This document shows, in pieces, positions 1,520 through 14,700 of a stretch of 32,255 nucleotides of DNA (within the stretch, counting starts at the first letter, position 1; each line of letters begins with the position of its first letter). This stretch comes from Candidatus Zixiibacteriota bacterium (GTDB taxonomy: Bacteria > Zixibacteria > MSB-5A5 > GN15 > FEB-12), in the NCBI GenBank assembly GCA_020351995.1, contig CP070674.1, positions 2,705,404 to 2,737,658 of the forward strand, given 5' to 3'. The notes beneath the pieces were generated by a model that did no database searches, was not told where the DNA came from, and saw only the letters and a program-made list of their open reading frames with translations. A program made the position numbers and the translations under genes.

Positions 1520-4500
1520 CTACCCGGAGAAGGTATGACAAATGATACACAGTTTCCTGCCTTTTTCAGCCACAAGTATGGCAGCGTGGTCCGACGAGTG
1601 AGCTGAGTGGCAGCCCACACAGCTGAGCACCTTTTGTGTACGTGGATCGGTCACGCCCGCACCCATGGGATGGTAGTGTGTCTCAACCGCGTCATCATGG
1701 CAACTGGTGCACAACTCTATAACATCGGCGGCTAGCAGCAGACCTTCGTTGGTGCTCGTATGCGGTTCATGACAGTTGCCACAGTCCTCGAAAGCCACGG
1801 CGTGCTTGATAGTCCCTTCAAAATCATCGTTGTCGTGGCAGGCAAGACAGAGCTGGATACCTTGCTTGTACAAAAGGCTGCTCCCGTAGCCCACATGCGG
1901 CCCATGACAACCGACACAGCCTTCATCCTGCTGAAGCGGAGCGTGAACAACGGAACTTGTGGCCTCACTCACAAAATCCTCGTGACATGCGAAGCAGAGC
2001 TGGTTGACACCTGAGACCAGCCTGTGCGGTTGCAGGCCGTCATGACAGGTGGTGCAGTCACCATCGGCAAACGGCGCATGACTGTCGGGAAGCAACAAAC
2101 CTTTCGAGCCGGCCACTCCGGCGTGGGCGGCGTGGCAGCTCTGGCAATCGACGCCATCGAGCGAGAACCCTTTATGAGCCGTACGCAGTTCACGCGCCTG
2201 CATGTCATGACAGTCGCCGCACAGGACCGATTTGGCCTGTGTAAGCAAGGCAGGCTGCTGGCCGGCGTGTGGAAGGTGGCAGGAACCGCATTCACCGCCC
2301 ACCGCGGGAGCATGCGGTTCGCCCTGAGCTATTTGCTGACCGAGTTCCTCATGGCAACTGAAACAGAGACTCTCAGATGGTCTGGTGGTCAAGGCCGCGT
2401 ACGGAGAGGCGTGCGGACGATGACACTGAAGGCACTCACCGCGCTCAAATGGATCATGTATGACCGTCTGATGTTGCATATCCTTGAGATCGTCGTGGCA
2501 CGAAAGACACAAATCGCCTCCCTGGGCCTTGAGCAGGTTCTCGTTATCGGCGGTGTGTAATCGGTGACAACCTCCGCAATCGTCCCCGGCAAACGGACCG
2601 TGGAGATACTTCATCTCCAGACCCTCCGATACCGACTCATGGCAGGCCGAACATATCTCGGTCATTTCGCCGACCGGTACCATTTTGTTCTCGGCGTCCT
2701 TTTCATGACAGCTTTCGCAATCTCCTTCGGCGAACGGCGGGTGCGAAAGATTCCTGACCAATTTGGGCTGGTCTGAAATATGAGGGTTATGACAATCCAG
2801 GCAGTCGGCTATGGTAAGGTCGTATCCACCGTGAGCGACAAACAGGGAATCATCCAGGGCGTGGCACGTCCCGCACAATTCGGCCGCCTCGCCAGTTACA
2901 AATCCGGGAAAGGGCGAACCGTGCGCGGCGTGGCAGGCATCGCAATCGCCCTCGGCGACAGGGGCATGGGCGTTCTGCTGACGAAACTTTTCGACGAGGT
3001 CTTTGTGGCAGGTATAACACAGGTCGGACGAAACGCCGGTCAGTTTCGGCAATTGCCCCACTTTGAGGCCGGCAACTTCAACAAAGGTCATCCGGCCGGT
3101 GACCAGTTTATCCTCATTCCCGCCATGGGGATTGTGACAACCGGTGCAGTCACCTTCTTTGGCCGAGGTGTGTACATATGATTCAGTCAAATTCAATTCA
3201 TCAAAATCGTGACACGATGAACACAGGTCGTTGTTGCCGGATGTGAGTAAGTGAAGGTTGTCGGCGTAGTGAGGGGCATGACAGGCCTGGCAATCATCGA
3301 CAGCGGGGGCGTGAGGTACAGCCATCTCCAGACGCTTTGTCACATCGACGTGGCAATTCAGGCACAGGTCGACGCCGCCTTCAACCAGGTGAGCGCTCCG
3401 GCTGAAATGGGGTAAGTGGCAGTCCGCGCAATTTCCGGTTAAATACGGTTGGTGACCCGATTCCGCTGTCAGAGCTTCGCGATCGATTTCATGGCAATCG
3501 CGGCAGAGCTGATCCGGTTCTTTGCTAAGAATCCCCGCCTGCCAGCCCTCGTGGGGGCTGTGACAACCGAGACAGTCATCTACCGCCGCGTGTATTACCG
3601 CCGCCGCGTCCTTCATTGCGGCAAAGTCTTTATGACAGTCCAGACATAGACTGGCATCATCGGTTTTGACCAGACCGTCGCGGCTGGATCCGTGAACATC
3701 GTGACAACTTCCGCAATCGCCAGTCACTGCGGGCACATGCGGCGTCTTGCCGGTGCCGGTGAGGACGTCCTCATGGCACTCTCCGCAGATCGTGGCCTGG
3801 TCGGTTTTGAGCAGATGGTCAAAGCGGGACGAATGGGAATCATGACAGTTGTCGCAGTTTTCGGCTTCCACCGCAGGATGCGGGAAAGCGGCCGAAGTCA
3901 TATCAACAATATCATCGTGACAGGCACCGCAAACCTGTCCGGGCGTTACGCCTTCCTCGAAACCGATCTTACCCTCGGCGTCCGGAAGGGAATGGCAAAT
4001 TTCACAATCACCGCTGGCGAACGGGGCGTGAGCATTATCGGCCATAAGACCTTTCGTGTCCGATGAATGCCCGGAGTGACAATCGCCACATGGAAGTCCA
4101 ATAGCGCTATGACTTTCATGCGTCTGCAACCAGGCATTATCATTCACGTCATGGCATGAGCCGCACAGCGTGTTCAACTCGCTGACGAATAGCCCGGCGT
4201 GAGGGCTGTTATGCGAGGCGTGACAGGTCATACACTCCAGCTGTTCGAATGGGGCGTGGACAAACCCGCGTTCCATATCAGCTTTGACGATTTCTTCGTG
4301 GCAGACCTCGCACAGGTTTCGCCGGTCCTTGCCCTCCGGAATGGATCGTATCATTTTCGAGTTATTCGAACCGTGAGGATTGTGACAATCCCAGCACTTG
4401 CCCTCGGCCACCGGAAAGTGAACCTCGCCCTGATTGTACTTAACTTCCAGGTCAGGGTGGCAACTATAACACAAACCCGAGGTTACGTTCTTGAGAATAA

Positions 4501-4714
4501 GTTCCTGGGCGAAACCGTGCGGCTTATGGCAACGCTCGCAATCCTGGTCTTCCACCGGTTTATGCTTGTGGTCGAATTTAGAGTATCTCTCTTTAGCGTC
4601 CTTATGGCAATCATAGCATGTCTCGGCTGCCCGGGCCGAATCCGGCCCTCCAATCAGCCCCATGATTACAAGTATAGAAACGGCAAGAATCCAGTTAGTA
4701 TGTGTTTCGCGCAC
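1520..4714 (-). CDS. Secreted multiheme c-type cytochrome with about 42 CxxCH haem sites (doubled-CXXCH repeats)
   Basis: A 1064-residue protein with a Sec signal peptide (hydrophobic residues about 8-22, likely cleavage after ARAA at about 30). I count 42 CxxCH haem-attachment motifs spread over the whole mature length. They occur in the paired pattern of the doubled-CXXCH family: H-x-P, about 6 residues, C-x2-C-H, x2-H, about 12-20 residues with a Leu, L-C-x2-C-H. Extra His residues (HAPF, HSPH, NPHG) fit bis-His ligation. No C-terminal anchor, lipobox or other domain is seen. The family works in periplasmic or extracellular electron transfer; partners here are unknown. The start is GTG at 4714, just 9 nt after the upstream gene's stop with a GAAAGTGAGAG stretch before it, so the two genes are probably co-transcribed. 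Confidence 0.93.
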   Translation of the reverse strand: MRETHTNWILAVSILVIMGLIGGPDSARAAETCYDCHKDAKERYSKFDHKHKPVEDQDCERCHKPHGFAQELILKNVTSGLCYSCHPDLEVKYNQGEVHFPVAEGKCWDCHNPHGSNNSKMIRSIPEGKDRRNLCEVCHEEIVKADMERGFVHAPFEQLECMTCHASHNSPHAGLFVSELNTLCGSCHDVNDNAWLQTHESHSAIGLPCGDCHSGHSSDTKGLMADNAHAPFASGDCEICHSLPDAEGKIGFEEGVTPGQVCGACHDDIVDMTSAAFPHPAVEAENCDNCHDSHSSRFDHLLKTDQATICGECHEDVLTGTGKTPHVPAVTGDCGSCHDVHGSSRDGLVKTDDASLCLDCHKDFAAMKDAAAVIHAAVDDCLGCHSPHEGWQAGILSKEPDQLCRDCHEIDREALTAESGHQPYLTGNCADCHLPHFSRSAHLVEGGVDLCLNCHVDVTKRLEMAVPHAPAVDDCQACHAPHYADNLHLLTSGNNDLCSSCHDFDELNLTESYVHTSAKEGDCTGCHNPHGGNEDKLVTGRMTFVEVAGLKVGQLPKLTGVSSDLCYTCHKDLVEKFRQQNAHAPVAEGDCDACHAAHGSPFPGFVTGEAAELCGTCHALDDSLFVAHGGYDLTIADCLDCHNPHISDQPKLVRNLSHPPFAEGDCESCHEKDAENKMVPVGEMTEICSACHESVSEGLEMKYLHGPFAGDDCGGCHRLHTADNENLLKAQGGDLCLSCHDDLKDMQHQTVIHDPFERGECLQCHRPHASPYAALTTRPSESLCFSCHEELGQQIAQGEPHAPAVGGECGSCHLPHAGQQPALLTQAKSVLCGDCHDMQARELRTAHKGFSLDGVDCQSCHAAHAGVAGSKGLLLPDSHAPFADGDCTTCHDGLQPHRLVSGVNQLCFACHEDFVSEATSSVVHAPLQQDEGCVGCHGPHVGYGSSLLYKQGIQLCLACHDNDDFEGTIKHAVAFEDCGNCHEPHTSTNEGLLLAADVIELCTSCHDDAVETHYHPMGAGVTDPRTQKVLSCVGCHSAHSSDHAAILVAEKGRKLCIICHTFSG

Positions 4715-5420: not shown

Positions 5421-7181
5421 TCACAACAGCAGTTGTTTGCTGGCTAATTCTCGGTAGAGTGGCGAACTGCTCAGCAGGGCGTCATGAGTCCCTTCATCGA
5501 CAATGCGGCCCCGGTCGATAACGATGATCCGGTCGGCATGCCGAACGGTGGCCAGGCGATGCGCCACGACAATAGCGGTCTTGTTCGTCAGAAGCTGCTT
5601 GAGGGCCTGCTGGATTAACTCCTCTGATTTCGAATCGAGGGCCGAGGTTGCCTCGTCGAGCAGGATGATCGGCGGATCGCGCAGAACGGCACGCGCCAGA
5701 CACAGGCGCTGTTTTTCGCCACCGGACACGGTCACGCCTCTCTCCCCCACTTCTGTCCCGTAACCACCTTTGAGACCGATAACAAATTCGTGGATGTTGG
5801 CGATCCTGGCCGCCTGCTCAACATCGTCAACAGTCGCGTCGGGGTCGGAATAGGCGATATTATCGAATATGGACATCTTGAACAGCACCGGATCCTGGTC
5901 GACAAGAGCCATACACCGACGCAACGATTTTAGCTCAATCCGCCTCACATCGACACCATCAATGGTTATCTGCCCGGAATCGGTATCAAAGAACCGAAGT
6001 AGCAAATTCACCAGGGTTGTCTTTCCGGAGCCCGAAGGGCCTACGATGGCCACGGTTTCGCCGGGCTGGATGCTTAACGAGATATCCTCGAGAGCGAATC
6101 CGGAGTCATTGTAGCGGAAGTTGACATTTTTGAATTCGATGGCGCCGCGCACATTCTCCAGTTTCACCGGCTGGGGGTCTTCTGTTATCGCCGGGGGCAT
6201 ATCGAGGTATTCGAAAACGCGGTTGACCGACGCCATAGATGCCTGAACATCCACATTGATGGAAGCCAGATCCTGCACGGGTTCATAGAGGTAGGTGAGC
6301 AACATGTAGAAGGCCATGAGTGAACCCAGCTTCATACTGCCACTTGCGATGAGGTATGTTCCCCAGGCCAGAACCACCACCGGCCCGAGCATATTAACGA
6401 AATGCACCAGATTGTAGGCCAGCGAAGTCACCACGGAATTCTTGACATAGAGGTCCCTGAGCGAATTGAGCACACCATCGACTTTTCTCGCCTCGGCTTT
6501 TTCCTGTCCAAAGGCCCTGACCGTTTTCAGTCCCGACAACGCTTCCAGCAGACGCCCCTGCAGACGAGCGATTGTTTCCTGAAGGCGGCGGGCAAGCTCG
6601 TGGACTTTGACACCGAAGAAGTGCGACGCCAGAATCGTCAGGGGGACCGGTATCAGGGCCACCAGAGTCATCTTCCAGTTCACGTAGAGCAGGAAGACAA
6701 AAATGCCGATGAGAAGGAGCACGTTTTGAATGAAGACGAGAAGGGTAACGGCCAGCAGGTTCTGCATACGGTTGGCGTCGGACATGATGCGAGATGTGAT
6801 TTCGCCAATCTGATTTTTTTGATAAAACCAGAACGAGACGGTTTCGAGATGTGAGAAGAGTTCGGAACGAACATCGCTAATGATACTGGCGCCGATGCGT
6901 GTGGCCATGTAATCCTGGGCCAGACCGAATACCACGCGGGAGAAGTAAATAACTATCAGGGCCAGACCGAACCACACCGCCGGATGCCAGTTAATGCCGC
7001 CTCCTTCAGTGGTGGCCAGCAACTGTGGAATCAGGTCATCAATCATGTACTTGACAGCTGCGGGAATAGCCAGGGCAAGGCCGGCCAGAACCATCATTAC
7101 CAGGAAGGTTGCGACCTGGAGATACCAGTACGGCTTCAGATAGCGCCAGAGGCGTTTTATGATTTTCCTGCTGGGAAGCAT
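5421..7181 (-). CDS. ABC exporter, fused transmembrane and ATPase domains (MsbA/peptide-exporter type)
   Basis: A 586-residue half-transporter. The N-terminal type-IV exporter membrane domain (about residues 15-320) shows six hydrophobic segments and the family phrases QIGEITSRIMSD and LQGRLLEALSGLKTVRAFGQ. The ATPase domain has Walker [10 protein letters not shown] (381-389), Q-loop Q429, signature VSGGEKQRL (485-493), Walker B IILLDEATSALD (505-516) and H-loop His541, so it should be catalytically competent as a homodimer. There is no N-terminal C39 peptidase domain, so it would not cleave a leader itself. It is the last gene of the radical SAM/peptide cassette, 53 nt after the second radical SAM gene, which suggests export of the modified peptide. 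A lipid flippase role is possible on sequence alone. The ATG at 7181 has AAGGA directly before it, a poor spacing. Confidence 0.92.
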   Translation of the reverse strand: MLPSRKIIKRLWRYLKPYWYLQVATFLVMMVLAGLALAIPAAVKYMIDDLIPQLLATTEGGGINWHPAVWFGLALIVIYFSRVVFGLAQDYMATRIGASIISDVRSELFSHLETVSFWFYQKNQIGEITSRIMSDANRMQNLLAVTLLVFIQNVLLLIGIFVFLLYVNWKMTLVALIPVPLTILASHFFGVKVHELARRLQETIARLQGRLLEALSGLKTVRAFGQEKAEARKVDGVLNSLRDLYVKNSVVTSLAYNLVHFVNMLGPVVVLAWGTYLIASGSMKLGSLMAFYMLLTYLYEPVQDLASINVDVQASMASVNRVFEYLDMPPAITEDPQPVKLENVRGAIEFKNVNFRYNDSGFALEDISLSIQPGETVAIVGPSGSGKTTLVNLLLRFFDTDSGQITIDGVDVRRIELKSLRRCMALVDQDPVLFKMSIFDNIAYSDPDATVDDVEQAARIANIHEFVIGLKGGYGTEVGERGVTVSGGEKQRLCLARAVLRDPPIILLDEATSALDSKSEELIQQALKQLLTNKTAIVVAHRLATVRHADRIIVIDRGRIVDEGTHDALLSSSPLYRELASKQLLL

Positions 7182-7234: not shown

Positions 7235-8317
7235 TTACTCCTTTATCAGCTCAAGGAGCTTCGTGATCATTTCCGTATCTTCAGGCTCAATTCCGTTCTT
7301 CCGCTCGATTTGATAGATGCAGTAAGGGTTGTTGGCCCGTTCGCCCGTTGCCGAAACTGATGTTGTGGCGCATCCTCCCCGGCACAACGGCAGATAACGG
7401 CACTCCTTGCAGGGGCCGGAAGCCGTCTGCCGCGTGAAGCGGCGATTGTATAAGAACCCCTCATCGTTGTTCCAGATCTCGCTAAAGGACGAATCCCTTA
7501 TATTCCCTTCGACAAATTCCTCGGGCATCGACAGGCAGCCTTTAATGTTGCCGTTGGATTCTATTCCGGCCACCCTGGTTCCGGCATAGCACCCCAGGTA
7601 CGGATTGATGCCCCAGAGCCTGGTGCCTTTACAGCCATAATACCCGATATTCTCACCGACATCAATCCTAATTTCGTCATTCTTCTGTTTGAACTCCATC
7701 AGCTTGTCGATTAGCCGGGGGTAGTTATCGAGGCTGAGAACGAGATCCTTGTGCATCCGGCCGGTAAAGGTAGTCATCTGAACTCGCCAGAGTTTGCATC
7801 CCAGATCTATCAGGGTCTGGCGAATATCGTCCAATTCACCCAGGTTGATATTGGAGACCTGAGTTACGGCACAGAACAGCAGCCCGTGCTTAGCCAGCAG
7901 GCTCATGGCGTTCACGGCGCGCTGCCAACTGTCTTCACGCTGTCTGATATAGTTGTGAGTCTTCTCGGTACCGTCGAAACTGATACCAACATTGTCTATC
8001 CCGACCCGCTTCAACTCAAGGGCGGTTTCCTCGGTAAAAGCGTGTCCGTTGGAGATGAAGTAGACTTTCATCCCCCGCTCTTTGCCGCGCGCAGCCAGCA
8101 TAGGCCAGTCTTCGCGCATAAGCGGCTCGCCGCCGGAGAGGGTCAGGGACCTGGTCCCGAGTTCCGCCAGTTCATCTATCAGGTTCAGGGCCTCTTCGGT
8201 AGTTAGTTCATCGGGGCGTTTTTTCCCGGCCGAGGTGCCGCAGTGAATGCATCGCATGTTACAGGCAAAAGTAATTTCCCACACCACTTTCTCGGGAAAG
8301 AATTCGAAACTGGTCAT
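7235..8317 (-). CDS. Radical SAM/SPASM peptide-maturase-like enzyme (second of two)
   Basis: 360 residues. The radical SAM cluster motif is C19-x3-C23-x2-C26 (CNMRCIHC) and the SAM-binding GGEP is at 62-65. A C-terminal SPASM domain is complete: C243-x12-G-x4-C261, then C303-x2-C306-x5-C312-x3-C316 and C333, the seven-cysteine pattern that binds auxiliary [4Fe-4S] clusters. Proteins of this build modify ribosomal peptides (thioether or C-C cross-links, as in sactipeptides, ranthipeptides and PQQ) or related substrates. It begins with ATG overlapping the TGA of the preceding radical SAM gene (4-nt ATGA overlap), so the two are translationally coupled. It lacks the long N-terminal region of its neighbour, and the two differ clearly in sequence, so they probably catalyse different steps rather than being a recent duplication. 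Confidence 0.9.
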   Translation of the reverse strand: MTSFEFFPEKVVWEITFACNMRCIHCGTSAGKKRPDELTTEEALNLIDELAELGTRSLTLSGGEPLMREDWPMLAARGKERGMKVYFISNGHAFTEETALELKRVGIDNVGISFDGTEKTHNYIRQREDSWQRAVNAMSLLAKHGLLFCAVTQVSNINLGELDDIRQTLIDLGCKLWRVQMTTFTGRMHKDLVLSLDNYPRLIDKLMEFKQKNDEIRIDVGENIGYYGCKGTRLWGINPYLGCYAGTRVAGIESNGNIKGCLSMPEEFVEGNIRDSSFSEIWNNDEGFLYNRRFTRQTASGPCKECRYLPLCRGGCATTSVSATGERANNPYCIYQIERKNGIEPEDTEMITKLLELIKE

Positions 8318-9675
8318 GACTGATCTCCGGTATTCCGGTCCTCCTGCTTTAGCTCGGCCTCAAGCTGTTTGAAAGCGGCTATTATCTCCAGCATTGGCTG
8401 AAGATTATATTTCCAGCTTTCGCATATTTCTTCGCCGGCAAGATTGCGGTCCACTCTTTTTGCCGGGCAACCACCCATGCAGATGGGGAGTAGGTTACAC
8501 TCGCGACAGGCTTTTTCTTCGAAAGGATTTACGTCAAAAAGCCGCAGGAAGTAGGGATGCTGAAAGTCGATGGTGTCACGGATATTGCCCATCGATTTCC
8601 CCACGTCGCCGACATAGTTCCAGCATCGATACATGTAGCCGTTTGAGTCGATTACAAAGGCATTCACAATCTGGGCCATACAGGTAACACTGGAAGGCGC
8701 CGGCAATTTGTCTATGCGAAAGCCCTCGGCCAGTAACTGGCGGTAGAAGTCAGCCTCGGTTTTGGAGAAGGCCTCGGTCTCGTAACAGGACTCGGCTATA
8801 TTGGCACACACCTCGGTAGCCGGTTCAAGATGCCCGAAGCTGATTGAAATTTTCTGATGAAGCCCGGCGTTTTTCAATTCCTCCAGAAGCTCCTTGATGG
8901 TGTCCACTGTGAAGCTCTGGTCGATGTTCACGCGGACACCTATTCTCATCTTGGGGGCCGCATAGACAAGATTATCGATTATGGTCTCGAAACTGTCCTT
9001 ACCGTTTTTCAAGGGCCGTTTCTTGTTATGCACCCGGGCCGGCCCATCAAGGGTCACCTGAGCGTTTCGAACCATGAACTTGACCAGCTTATCGGCAACA
9101 TCGGGGGTCATCAGGTAGCCGTTGGTGACAATACCGGAGCTATATCCGACCCGGTGTTCGCGAGCCATCTCGAAAAACCTCTCGGTCAAGTCCTCTACAA
9201 TATCCATAGCCAACAAGGGCTCGCCGCCATACCAGGTGACATCCATCTGGCGCATTTCGGTAAGATGACTTTTGACGAACTCCATCAACTCGTCGCGAAT
9301 CTCTTTCGACATGCGACCTGTTTTGTTCTCCTCGTAGCAATACTCACAACCCATATTGCATGCCATGGTCGGAGCGATCACCAGCCCCAGTGTGGACCGG
9401 CCGTACCGGCCAAGATAGTGCTCAAATTTCAAGGCCTGGAGCTCATCAAAATGTTTATCGCACACATACTTGCCATATTTCAGCTGTTCCAGCAGTTTTG
9501 ACTCTTCATCACTCAAAGGAGAGTCCGGATTGGCCGCCAGTTTCTCCAGCATTCGGCCGTACATATCGTAGTTTTCCATAGTCATCAACGCCACCGCACC
9601 GGATCGAGCGTTATAGGCGAGCAAGTGCTGGTCATCGTATGGCTGGAAATGATTGTAAAGGGACTTTTTCGACAT
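8314..9675 (-). CDS. Radical SAM/SPASM peptide-maturase-like enzyme (first of two, with N-terminal extension)
   Basis: 453 residues, close to the size of SCIFF/ranthipeptide-type maturases. Residues 1-95 form an N-terminal region with the phrase LLAYNARSGAVALMT, a type of segment common in peptide-modifying SPASM enzymes and possibly involved in leader binding (inference). The core has C106-x3-C110-x2-C113 (CNMGCEYCYEE) and GGEP at 150-153. The SPASM domain is complete: C332-x13-G-x4-C351, C390-x2-C393-x5-C399-x3-C403 and C418. It lies 208 nt downstream of the second Cys-rich peptide gene and overlaps the next radical SAM gene by 4 nt. The ATG at 9675 has no strong ribosome site, so it should be made at lower level than the peptides, which have near-perfect sites. 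The exact reaction cannot be told from sequence. Confidence 0.91.
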   Translation of the reverse strand: MSKKSLYNHFQPYDDQHLLAYNARSGAVALMTMENYDMYGRMLEKLAANPDSPLSDEESKLLEQLKYGKYVCDKHFDELQALKFEHYLGRYGRSTLGLVIAPTMACNMGCEYCYEENKTGRMSKEIRDELMEFVKSHLTEMRQMDVTWYGGEPLLAMDIVEDLTERFFEMAREHRVGYSSGIVTNGYLMTPDVADKLVKFMVRNAQVTLDGPARVHNKKRPLKNGKDSFETIIDNLVYAAPKMRIGVRVNIDQSFTVDTIKELLEELKNAGLHQKISISFGHLEPATEVCANIAESCYETEAFSKTEADFYRQLLAEGFRIDKLPAPSSVTCMAQIVNAFVIDSNGYMYRCWNYVGDVGKSMGNIRDTIDFQHPYFLRLFDVNPFEEKACRECNLLPICMGGCPAKRVDRNLAGEEICESWKYNLQPMLEIIAAFKQLEAELKQEDRNTGDQS

Positions 9676-9883: not shown

Positions 9884-10027
9884 TTAGATTGGCGGGATAC
9901 CGTATAGCGGAACATTCTCCGGGTTGCAAATATAATACAGTTTGCACAGGTCGGGGCAGTAAATATCGCAAGTCTTCTTCGGGCACTTCTTACCTTTCAG
10001 GTTTCCCGGATCGATTAAAAAGACCAT
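9884..10027 (-). CDS. Cys-rich small peptide 1, candidate RiPP precursor for the radical SAM pair
   Basis: 47 residues, shorter than usual gene-calling limits. It starts MVFLIDPGNLKGKK, has five Cys (15, 20, 24, 28, 34; spacing x4, x3, x3, x5) and ends VPLYGIPPI before TAA. The ribosome site is near-perfect: AGGAGG 7 nt before ATG 10027. It is clearly homologous to the 48-residue peptide encoded at 10197-10343. Both share MV-[FY]-LIDP-x2-L at the start, a lysine-rich stretch, five Cys and PLYG-[IV]-PP at the end, while the residues between the cysteines differ. A conserved head and tail around a variable Cys core, placed directly before two SPASM radical SAM enzymes and an exporter, is what a RiPP precursor looks like. 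It resembles SCIFF/ranthipeptide precursors in Cys density, but the leader is not one I know. A small metal-binding protein is the main alternative. Confidence 0.8.
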   Translation of the reverse strand: MVFLIDPGNLKGKKCPKKTCDIYCPDLCKLYYICNPENVPLYGIPPI

Positions 10028-10196
10028 CAACTCACCTCCTCAAGGTCGTTTGAGGTTTCCCGAATACGGCATGGGAGCGCGTGGTAAAACAGCCCACGGA
10101 GGAACAGCTTCACCGGAGCTACCAGCTTCTTCGAAGTCAGGGTTGTATAGAATCCTGTGTAACTATTATTCTTATTGCTCCGTTAACGACGCTATC

Positions 10197-10343
10197 TTAC
10201 TGCGGCGGCGGTGGTACTCCGTACAGCGGCGTGATCCTCCCAATGCAGAGCGGAGTGCAGAGTTTACATACGATCTGACAACCCTTCTTCTTGCAGCCGT
10301 TGCCGCCCTTGATAAGGTCTCTGGGATCGATTAAATAGACCAT
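10197..10343 (-). CDS. Cys-rich small peptide 2, candidate RiPP precursor (paralogue of peptide 1)
   Basis: 48 residues with head MVYLIDPRDLIKGGNG, five Cys (17, 22, 26, 29, 33; spacing x4, x3, x2, x3) and tail ITPLYGVPPPPQ, then TAA. AAGGAGG lies 7 nt before ATG 10343. From AGGAGG through codon 7 the DNA is almost identical to the other peptide gene (31 of 33 positions), whereas the Cys core and the 169-nt spacer between them have diverged. That indicates duplication with a constrained leader and a changing core. It is the first gene after the promoter at 10612-10639. The Pro-rich tail and the conserved PLYG-x-PP might be a recognition or follower element. No cleavage motif such as Gly-Gly at a leader/core boundary is shared by both peptides, although this one has KGGNG just before its first Cys. 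Confidence 0.8.
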   Translation of the reverse strand: MVYLIDPRDLIKGGNGCKKKGCQIVCKLCTPLCIGRITPLYGVPPPPQ

Positions 10344-10707: not shown

Positions 10708-11481
10708 CTACTGTCCGGTGGGGGACTGCATCACATCGACTTTCCTGTACCCTTCCGGTACCGCGAAAGTCCCGGCCGGAGCATCCTTGGTAAGGAACTC
10801 CAGAATCTCCACGGTAGATTTGACCTCAACACCCATAACTTGAGTGCTGGTGACGCTATATACCGGGATGCCCTTAATCTTTTTTGTTTCCTCCAGCATC
10901 TGCTCAAAACCGGGCATGGCCGCCATCTGGCTGTTGGCCATGGCCTGGAAGCTTTCCCAATCCGCCTCGACATCGTCGGTCACCCACATCTCGGTGGTGG
11001 CATTGCCCATGGGCATGCTCATCTCCATCATATACCTGGTCGTGTTCCAGTCACCGATCTTCTTGGTTTCCTCGGTCGGCGTTACGGTCAGCCGCATTGA
11101 CTGCATCATCTGTTGCTGCATAGCCTCGGCCATAGCGCGCTCTTCATCATCCATATCCGCCATAGCTTCTTCAAGCGCGGCAGCGGCATCGGTAGAAGTT
11201 TCGGAATATTTCCTGGCGTTATGGTCCACGACATAGAGCTTCATATCGTCCGCGATGTAGATATATGATTCATCGCCACTGGTCAGCATACACGATTTGC
11301 CCTCAGTCAACCATATTACAGTAGTATCATCCACAGCCGCTTGCTTCTGACCCATAATCTCGTAGGCGTCGGTGTGGTGCACTTGCCTGATGAAATGGTC
11401 GCCCACGGCCGGGCTGGCCAAAACGAAAACCGCCAGCAAAACTGTAACGCCGGTCACAAATGACCTGAACGGGTAATTCAC
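10708..11481 (-). CDS. Secreted DUF4412-like protein
   Basis: 257 residues from GTG 11481, which has an excellent AGGAGG 5 nt upstream. A signal peptide (about residues 1-27, cleavage near AVG|DH) precedes a domain with the phrases SYIYIADDMKLYVVDHNARKY, EETKKIGDWNTTRYMMEM and TTEMWVTDDVEADWESF. This order (stored value, link to YIAD/DH, 'kkIg...ttrY', 'tE.Wvtddv') is the pattern of the DUF4412 group of periplasmic proteins, whose function is unknown. The middle (about 100-130) is unusual: an acidic, Met- and Gln-rich helix (MADMDDEERAMAEAMQQQMM). The gene is alone, divergent from tricorn across a 280-nt region, and separated from the downstream peptide operon by a hairpin and a promoter. Fold similarity to LolA-type lipid carriers is possible but not shown. 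Confidence 0.8.
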   Translation of the reverse strand: MNYPFRSFVTGVTVLLAVFVLASPAVGDHFIRQVHHTDAYEIMGQKQAAVDDTTVIWLTEGKSCMLTSGDESYIYIADDMKLYVVDHNARKYSETSTDAAAALEEAMADMDDEERAMAEAMQQQMMQSMRLTVTPTEETKKIGDWNTTRYMMEMSMPMGNATTEMWVTDDVEADWESFQAMANSQMAAMPGFEQMLEETKKIKGIPVYSVTSTQVMGVEVKSTVEILEFLTKDAPAGTFAVPEGYRKVDVMQSPTGQ

Positions 11482-11535
11482 ACTATCCTCCTAAATTGAA
11501 TTGTTGATTCACTCCCTGCGACCTATAATTGCCAA

Positions 11536-11544
11536 ATTATATCA
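11536..11544 (-). promoter_or_regulatory. Putative extended -10 promoter for the DUF4412-like gene
   Basis: On the minus strand TGATATAAT is an exact extended -10 element (TGn plus TATAAT) without a convincing -35. Start of transcription near 11529 would give a leader of about 48 nt ending in the strong AGGAGG site. Confidence 0.42.
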
Positions 11545-11668
11545 CACTGTCAACGAAAACCGCCTGCCGTGGTGCACTCCATCGGGGCAGTCTTCCGGCT
11601 GCACGCCGAAGCCATTAGCGGAATGTAACTTATCAGAGCTAACCTCGTACAAGCAAATAAGATTGGCA

Positions 11669-11697
11669 TTGACTGACATTCTCGATGAGTATATTTT
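11669..11697 (+). promoter_or_regulatory. Putative sigma70-type promoter for the tricorn protease gene
   Basis: TTGACT (11669-11674), 17-nt spacer, TATTTT (11692-11697). Start near 11704 gives a leader of about 58 nt before ATG 11762. This also argues against the longer open frame beginning at 11501 being the true protein. Confidence 0.45.
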
Positions 11698-11761
11698 CAC
11701 CTATCACATTCAGAATTCCCACCCCGCCCCGAATGCGGGTGTGAAAACAAGGGAGAAACGC

Positions 11762-14700
11762 ATGCAGAGGTTATTTTTAGCTAAGATCACCATTATTTTG
11801 ATTCACCTTGCCGTTCTGTTTTCGGTATCTAACGCGGACACGAACAGCGCCTCACACACTCGCAAGGGATATTACCGCCAGCCGGCAATCCATAATGAAA
11901 CAGTGGTGTTCGTCGCCGAGGGGGATCTGTGGAAAGTCGATGCCTCCGGCGGCGTAGCCCAGAGACTCACGTCTCACCCGGGTCTGGAGTCAAACCCGGC
12001 TATATCGCCAGACGGCAAGTGGCTGGCTTTCACCGGTCAATATGAGGGAGTGACCGAAGCCTATATGATGCCTCTCGACGGCGGTCTTCCTACCCGCTTG
12101 ACCTACTTCGGGCGCAGGGCCAACGCGGTGGGATGGACCCCGGCCGGGAAAGTGATCGTCACCACATATCATTACTCTACCTTACCCAGTCGGCAGTTGA
12201 TTACGGTCGACCCGGTCACGATCGAGCATTCTCTGATCCCGCTGAGTCAGGCAGCGGAAGGATGTTATGATGAGAATGGCAAGACCCTGTTTTTCACCCG
12301 CTGGCCTTTTCAGGGCAGCTATACCAAGCGTTACAAAGGCGGCACAGCCCAGAATATCTGGAAATTCACTGAGGGTCAGCCGGAGGCTATCCCGTTGACG
12401 TCCGATTACCCCGGTCAGAGCAATTCCCCGATGTGGTTTGGTGGCCGGGTGTATTTCGCCAGCGACCGAGACGGTACCATGAACATCTGGTCGATGGATG
12501 AAAACGGCGGTGATTTGAAACAGGAGACGTCACATGTCGGCTGGGATGTCAAGTCGCCATCACAGTCAAAGGGAAAGATCGCGTACCAGATCGGTGCCGA
12601 TATACACACCTACGAGATCTCCTCGAAGACTGACAGAAAGCTCCCGATAGTACTGGCCTCGGACTTTGATCAACTGCGTGAGAACTGGATCGACAAGCCG
12701 TTCGACTATGTTACCTCGGTCCATCTCTCTCCTGACGGGGAGCGAGTGGTCATTACCGCCCGGGGTGCTCTTTTTGTCGTACCAGGGAAGGGCGGTCGCT
12801 TTGTCGAAGCTACTCGCGAAAGCGGCATCCGTTATCGCGGTGGGCGTTTCATGCCGGATGGCAAGTCACTGCTCGCTCTGAGCGACGCTACCGGCGAACT
12901 CGAATTCTGGACGGTCCCCGCCGACGGTCTCGGTAAAACCGAGCAGATAACCGACGACGGTACCATCCTGCGCTTTAACGGCATACCTTCGCCCGACGGT
13001 AAAATGATAGCGTACGACGATGCGAATCAGGCACTCTGGATACATGATATTGAGGGTGGAACGACAACCCTGGTAGACTCGTCCGATACGTGGGAGTTTT
13101 CGGGACTTGCCTGGTCCTCTGACAACCGCTGGCTGGCCTACGCAAAGCCTTCTCATACTTTCCTCAATCAGATATTTATCTACGATGTGACCAATCGGGA
13201 ATCGGTTGCCGTTACAAGCGAACGTTACATCGATCAAAGTCCGGCGTGGAGCGCGGATGGCAAGTGGTTGTACTTTCTATCCAACCGCGATGTTTCTACC
13301 GTGGTACCGTATGTTTGGGCCCTTAACCAGCCTTTTCCGCTAATCGACAAGATGACCAAGATATATATGGTTCCCCTTACACCCGGACTCCGCTCGCCGT
13401 TTGAGCCCGACAACGAACTAACAGCCGCCGACGAGGAGGCAAAGGACAAAGAGAAAGATTCGGAGGATTCTACGGTGGCCGTCCGGATCGATTTTGACAA
13501 TATCCAACAGCGAATAATGGAAGTCCCGGCACCCGCGGGTAACTACAGTAGCCTGGAAGCCACCGACAAGCAATTGTTGTGGATATCGCGGCAAACACTG
13601 GGCAATCGCCAGCGAGAACTGCAAACGATCGAGATAAAAAACGAAGACCCGAAAGTGGAAATGCTGGGCGCCGGCATCGGGGGATTCGAGGTTTCGAAGG
13701 ACTTCAAGAAGATGTTGGTCCGCAAGAACAACAGTCTGTATATCGAGGACCTTCCGGCCAAATCCTCACTGGACTTGAGCAAGTCAAAGGTGGACTTGTC
13801 CGGCTGGGCTTTTTCGGTGACCCCGGCGGAAGAGTGGCGACAGATGTTTATCGATGCCTGGAGACTGGAACGCGATTACTTTTATGACCCGAATATGCAT
13901 GGGGTTGACTGGGAGGCTATAAGAGATAAATATCTTCCCCTTGTGGACCGCATCACGGATCGATACGAATTGAGTGACCTTCTCGGTGAGCTGGTTTCGG
14001 AGCTGTCCGCTTTGCACATATATGTGTTCGGAGGAGAGTTTAGAAAAGGTCAGGACAATATTGCCCCGGCTTCTCTGGGTGCCGTGCTGGTTCGCGACGA
14101 ATACGCGGAGGGCTACCGGGTTGAGCAAATATACCGGACCGACCCGGACGAACCGCAGTATATTTCTCCTCTTCTTCGTCCCGGTGTGGACATGTCGAAG
14201 GGTGATGTTATCACTGAGGTCAATGGCGTTTCCACTCTCTCGGTAGGTGCCGTTGAAGAGTTGCTCAGAAAGGCCGCCGGACAGGAGGTTCTCCTGACGG
14301 TGATGCCACATGACGCGGACAGTGTGAGAAGGACTATCGTGAAACCCATTTCCTGGGAACAGGCTAGGGATTTGCGTTACAGGGCATGGGAGTATAGCCG
14401 GCGGAGGATCGTGGAGGAGGCCGCCGACAACGAGATCGGTTATGTCCATCTGAGGGCCACGACCACCGAAGACTACGGTCAATGGGTTCGCGATTTCTTC
14501 CCCATCCTTGACCGTAAGGGCCTGGTAATTGATATGAGAAACAACAACGGGGGAAATATCGATAGCTGGATCCTCACGTCACTGCTCCGAACGCCATGGG
14601 CTTACTGGCAATCGCGCGTGGGTATTCCGTATCCCAACATGCAGTTGTCATTCAACGGTCACATCGCAGTGTTATGTAATGAGTGGACCGCATCCGACGG

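Follow-up and report, generated by a model that had tools for sequence, protein, structure and literature searches.

Clo7bot loci (TIGR04333/TIGR04334), represented here by that on the Paraclostridium bifermentans plasmid NZ_CP079738.1, encode tandem, small, Cys-rich peptides and have an ABC exporter gene nearby. The peptides begin with a seven-residue head, M-K-[FY]-I-x-[KQ]-P, and have their first Cys near residue 16. In the thioether-forming SCIFF/ranthipeptide maturase CteB the N-terminal RRE binds its leader as a beta strand, and PqqE uses a separate protein, PqqD (PMC8326336). In the cyanobactin precursors, short conserved addresses (RSI-RSIII) flank a hypervariable core, with different enzymes reading different addresses (PMC4663559). 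Here, a locus in a 32,255-nucleotide stretch of DNA (the window) from the 3.6 Mb single-contig genome of a Candidatus Zixiibacteriota bacterium is compared with these systems.

The order of genes on the minus strand of the window is P2, P1, rSAM A, rSAM B and ABC exporter, with the peptide genes leading the operon and rSAM B overlapping rSAM A by 4 bases (Table 1). The two minus-strand ORFs named in the original prediction were recovered at exactly the positions it gave, as were the Cys spacings that it described (x4-x3-x3-x5 and x4-x3-x2-x3) and the PLYG-x-PP tails of both peptides. P1 and P2 share the head M-V-[FY]-L-I-D-P and the tail P-L-Y-G-x-P-P, and contain five Cys residues apiece, unlike in spacing. 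The sequence AGGAGGTGA precedes the ATG of both genes, in which AGGAGG is an ordinary ribosome-binding site, and pattern matching found no terminator-like site between 9600 and 10720. Pfam and NCBIfam searches with P1 and P2 returned no family, and a PDB sequence search using the peptide profile returned no match. Downstream of the cassette (window 1520-4714, minus strand) lies a gene for a 1064-aa multihaem cytochrome-like protein that contains 42 CxxCH motifs; this gene adjoins the cassette in the two cassette-bearing genomes of the same genus and not elsewhere.

Table 1. Features of the peptide cassette in the window (positions are those of the window).
Feature	Position	Strand	Basis
Precursor P2, 48 aa: MVYLIDPRDLIKGGNGCKKKGCQIVCKLCTPLCIGRITPLYGVPPPPQ	10197..10343	minus	ORF with strong Shine-Dalgarno; ~70 relatives
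Precursor P1, 47 aa: MVFLIDPGNLKGKKCPKKTCDIYCPDLCKLYYICNPENVPLYGIPPI	9884..10027	minus	ORF with strong Shine-Dalgarno; ~70 relatives
P2 head MVYLIDP, putative rSAM A docking segment	10323..10343	minus	Conservation in relatives; Clo7bot head geometry
P1 head MVFLIDP, putative rSAM A docking segment	10007..10027	minus	Conservation in relatives
P2 variable Cys core	10230..10322	minus	High non-Cys entropy in relatives; constrained in same-genus orthologue
P1 variable Cys core	9911..10006	minus	High non-Cys entropy in relatives
P2 tail PLYGVPPPPQ + stop, putative rSAM B site	10197..10229	minus	Conservation; tail tracks rSAM B
P1 tail PLYGIPPI + stop, putative rSAM B site	9884..9910	minus	Conservation; tail tracks rSAM B
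Shine-Dalgarno AGGAGG of P2	10351..10356	minus	Sequence
Shine-Dalgarno AGGAGG of P1	10035..10040	minus	Sequence
Promoter-like site TTGACA-16-TATACT, upstream of P2	10612..10639	minus	11/12 consensus bases; consensus match only
rSAM A, radical SAM/SPASM maturase, 453 aa, CX3CX2C + 9 further conserved Cys, N-terminal RRE-like region	8314..9675	minus	NCBIfam, model, conserved Cys
rSAM B, second radical SAM/SPASM enzyme, 360 aa, without N-terminal RRE region	7235..8317	minus	Family search, model
ABC exporter (TMD + NBD), without C39 peptidase domain	5421..7181	minus	Family searches

The two peptide genes had been predicted to match at 31 of 33 bases from AGGAGG through codon 7, and the leader to be conserved as DNA. 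The count is correct, but the 33 bases end one base before the end of codon 7, inclusion of the full codon giving 31 of 34. The match is not random, the next-best ungapped match on either strand of the window being 20/33 (mean 8.2, sd 2.5). Conservation of leader DNA likewise holds for the window pair, whose heads are 90% identical as DNA, but this lies at the high end among within-locus pairs. Indeed, median identities in 56 within-locus pairs of relatives are 76% (DNA) and 71% (protein) for the head, and 67% (DNA) and 80% (protein) for the tail. Because paired heads in other loci differ at many codon positions, the constraint on the head is considered to be mainly on the protein, and selection on the head at the DNA level was rejected.

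The same cassette was recovered in approximately 36 of 132 genomes of the phylum (Zixibacteria), in the form of rSAM A orthologues of ~40-63% identity with an adjoining rSAM B. Searching the retrieved loci by profile and by pattern yielded ~70 peptides, at one to eight per locus, with the peptide genes directly upstream of the two radical SAM/SPASM maturase-like genes in ~37 loci and the synteny peptide(s)-rSAM A-rSAM B retained at essentially every locus. Short precursor genes with a conserved leader and a variable core, situated next to a maturase, are the general features of a RiPP cassette, and all are found here. An ABC exporter gene is present in most of the cassettes. About half of the loci also have a B12-binding radical SAM gene, absent from the window, which is near TIGR04013 and rSAM_ocin_1 (below the cutoffs) and is possibly a C-methyltransferase acting in a tailoring step; it lies between rSAM B and the ABC gene in L041, L043, L045, L048 and others. 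No protease was found among the genes common to the cassettes, so that cleavage of a leader or follower is at most putative.

The original prediction envisaged a fixed recognition segment joined to a variable product, and the position-by-position comparison of 53 aligned peptides bears this out: the head and the tail are almost invariant, and the core differs from peptide to peptide in length, number of Cys and sequence. Within the head, M1, P7 and Y/F3 are each present in 53/53 peptides and D6 in 43/53; within the tail, P, Y and G/S are each present in 53/53, followed by I, V, L or T. In 10 of the 53 peptides the tail is P-C-Y-G, with a Cys inside this conserved segment. The core is 12-31 residues long with between one and five Cys, the first of which falls at residue 14-17 in 49 of the peptides, with x3 the commonest spacing; the tail often begins 2-4 residues past the last. 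Entropy at non-Cys core positions is 2.2-3.6 bits, and the cores of paralogues at one locus have a median of 25% of their non-Cys residues in common. Uniform conservation of the core in orthologues, the outcome named beforehand as contrary to the prediction, is thus not the general pattern. The notion of a freely varying core holds between paralogues and lineages but not for every orthologue. In the P2 orthologue of a same-genus genome (G026), 20 of 21 core residues are kept while 12 codons differ synonymously, which indicates that this product is under purifying selection there. Since a given product can be so constrained, the variability lies between paralogues and lineages. The tail of the G026 orthologue has drifted to P-I-Y-S-T-P, with Pro and Tyr retained, and rSAM B is present in that genome.

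The best NCBIfam match of rSAM A is TIGR04334, the Clo7bot maturase, at 377.5 bits against a cutoff of 600; scores against TIGR04463 (293 bits, cutoff 525) and CefB (219 bits, cutoff 600) also fall short. Its AlphaFold2 model (pLDDT 88), in which the N-terminal elements are ordered as strands, two helices, a short strand and a helix, superposes on CteB (5why) over residues 5-434 (Z 28.1), N-terminal RRE region included, and on TigE over residues 1-437 (Z 24.3). The radical SAM/SPASM maturase with N-terminal RRE that characterizes ranthipeptide and sactipeptide systems is therefore present as a predicted fold. The rSAM B model (pLDDT 91) opens directly with the radical SAM core, and its match to SuiB extends only from residue 98 of that protein onwards. 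Matches of rSAM B to the mycofactocin maturase MftC (TIGR03962; 159.4 bits, cutoff 265) and to the GDL-motif maturase family TIGR03913 (235 bits, cutoff 591.75) are likewise below cutoff. Of the two enzymes rSAM B is the more conserved, with a mean column identity of 67% as against 62% for rSAM A; the invariant Cys residues number 10 and 12, respectively. Among the genomes of the phylum, no rSAM B at ≥56% identity occurs without rSAM A in the same genome. At the loci of the two rSAM B-like matches outside the phylum (41-43% identity), neither a comparably similar rSAM A nor an obvious P-x-Y-G peptide was seen.

Loci with rSAM A paralogues were likewise retrieved from genomes of the phylum and screened with a head-only pattern that is blind to the tail. 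Beside rSAM B (type I loci), 67 of 72 peptides have a P-[LMCI]-Y-[GS] tail. Beside a different second enzyme, B', which is 26-29% identical to rSAM B over the alignments (type II loci), the P-x-Y-G tail occurs in 0/27 peptides and an ILPP-like tail, as in MKFIEKPKTAQAKPCPCYNRLFYILPPNPVK, in 19/27. Loci without a second enzyme have the P-x-Y-G tail in 0/16 peptides and an ILPP-type tail in 1/16. The five non-matching hits beside rSAM B comprise three at L042, one at L043 and one, apparently spurious, at L052. The three at L042 lie near an extra rSAM A and fail the strict tail motif, but the tail-like remnants YLYAWP and PPFSIP can be read in them, and this locus was accordingly dropped as a clean within-clade loss of the tail with rSAM B. 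One more tailed peptide was found at L077, on a contig that ends within rSAM A. Neither the ABC gene nor the B12-type radical SAM gene tracks the tail, which occurs both with and without each of them. The kind of tail thus goes with the kind of second radical SAM enzyme, which supports the earlier proposal of the tail as a second recognition element. In a quick tree of rSAM A, in which the position of the long Clo7bot branch is unsure, type I, type II and B-less loci each form one side of a branch, so that few independent changes underlie the association between tail and rSAM B. Fisher p-values for the association take no account of shared ancestry and were not used to judge its strength.

The screen also brought to light further cassettes. 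The window's own genome has a second cassette, of type II (L086; G000:C1:2166000-2184000), with an rSAM A paralogue (33%) and B' (enzymes at 8116-9321 and 11018-12046) and four peptides, at 9438, 9670, 9918 and 10834, such as VKFIVPPTKGGNGPKCPPKTNPCEVVCSTFCTTLCKIFFPIIPPW. A distinct sub-type without rSAM B (L115, 3222-4711) has tandem peptides that begin M-[EQH]-F-[MIL]-x-x-P, end in LGCCC..LT.[ST] and lie beside another rSAM A paralogue. At L108 (7120-7706), L110 (7240) and L114 (5118-5327), where rSAM A and an ABC gene are present but rSAM B is not, the peptides have heads MDFLIQP, MDFMIEP or MEILIQP and CxC-rich cores. Long cores rich in Cys and aromatic residues behind a head [MV][NK]W[LI][VA].P, again without rSAM B, were found at L088 (1541 and 1718), L093 (6988), L101 (7562) and L112 (4924 and 5196).

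It seems probable that P1 and P2 belong, as RiPP precursors, to a Clo7bot-like system, in which the head serves rSAM A, the core is cross-linked by that enzyme and the tail serves rSAM B. We infer binding, chemistry, order of steps and export to be as follows. The head, M-x-[YF]-L-[IV]-D-P, would be a short leader, the strand-like MxYLIDP segment docking on the RRE-like N-terminal region of the modelled rSAM A, probably as a beta strand. The variable core, which begins ~8 residues past the head, would then be cross-linked by rSAM A, most likely through Cys thioethers, while the tail P-x-Y-[GS]-[IV] could be the address or the modification site of the RRE-less rSAM B, and the ABC protein would export the product. 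Across the phylum the P-x-Y-G motif was found only where rSAM B is present, which suggests that the two ends of the peptide are read by different enzymes. A further reading, with somewhat less than an even chance, is a modular two-address RiPP, in which the head recruits the RRE-bearing enzyme, the tail independently recruits the RRE-less one, and evolution has replaced the tail along with the second enzyme (P-x-Y-G where B occurs, ILPP where B' occurs, neither in the absence of B). The degenerate tail (PIYST) of the G026 P2 orthologue, despite the presence of rSAM B, counts against assignment of the tail to that enzyme.

In the phylogeny the type of tail cannot be separated from the clade of rSAM A, and the tail might just as well fit the type I clade; the rSAM A enzymes of that clade would then themselves read both ends of the peptide as a two-ended clamp, leaving rSAM B to modify the core or another residue. 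The short distance that often separates the last Cys from the tail would be in keeping with such a clamp, yet rSAM A is already equipped with an RRE-like region suited to docking of the head, and B-less relatives of rSAM A pair with tail-less peptides, which makes the clamp unlikely on balance. The complete conservation of Pro and Tyr in the tail, together with a cassette lacking a protease, such that the tail may remain on the product, could instead mean that the tail belongs to the conserved pharmacophore of the finished product and is not an enzyme address. This appears decidedly unlikely, as a constant end joined to a Cys core that differs in every paralogue fits an address better, and the tail changes type along with the enzyme; modification of the Tyr by rSAM B would, nevertheless, fuse the pharmacophore reading with the preferred explanation. 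The occurrence of an ABC exporter in most cassettes raises a role for the tail as an export or cleavage signal, for the transporter or for a protease encoded elsewhere. Such a role is very improbable: four loci (L065, L071, L074 and L075) have tailed peptides but no ABC gene within the stretch that was retrieved, the B-less loci L108, L110, L111, L113 and L114 have a related ABC protein (262-365 bits to that of the window) with no tailed peptide found, the ABC protein lacks a peptidase domain, and no protease is among the shared genes. Finally, an identity of the peptides as small zinc-finger-like proteins, with a structural metal-binding role and no relation to the enzymes, is scarcely credible, for although they are Cys-rich and the core of P2 is kept in a single orthologue from the same genus, Cys number (1-5) and spacing vary, the Pfam search gave no zinc family match of note, and linkage to the radical SAM genes is strict.

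To our knowledge, conserved followers are uncommon among radical SAM RiPPs. Radical SAM enzymes without an RRE pose the question of how the substrate is found. Here that question can be put to a direct test, since a short C-terminal motif differs according to the second enzyme, and the ~70 type I precursors and a sister set with another tail and enzyme provide a natural library. If this reading of the tail is true, the tail would offer a short, portable C-terminal tag with which to direct a second radical SAM reaction, and the phylum, which has almost no cultured members, would harbour a sizeable unexplored peptide family.

A search of a limited set of papers for Clo7bot, three TIGR accessions and the PLYG motif found no earlier description of this family, which does not show that the wider literature has none. 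With TIGR04333 (cutoff 31 bits), neither P1 nor P2 was matched and nothing in the window's whole own genome scored above the cutoff; 3 of 56 relatives matched, with a best E value of 3.2e-4. The geometry of the window peptides is nonetheless like that of Clo7bot, the family having a Clo7bot-type head, M-x-[FY]-[IL]-x-x-P, and a Cys-rich core starting near residue 15, and the Clo7bot radical SAM/SPASM maturase is homologous to rSAM A (35% identity). Conversely, the head differs in charge (KP in Clo7bot, DP in the window), Clo7bot peptides lack the P-x-Y-G tail and the Clo7bot locus shows no second radical SAM gene. Because the curated cutoffs are missed, and a tail and rSAM B are added, the family is set apart from Clo7bot as a variant. 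Among the TIGR04463/CefB RiPP maturases, one examined locus has as its annotated precursor a long peptide with a Cys at every fifth position. CteB (5wgg, 5why) resembles rSAM A in overall fold, including the N-terminal RRE region, but at 18% sequence identity, and the window precursors are not SCIFF peptides. With the cyanobactins the window system shares the logic of its addresses; the enzymes and chemistry are unrelated, and the comparison is one of how the systems work, not of kinship.
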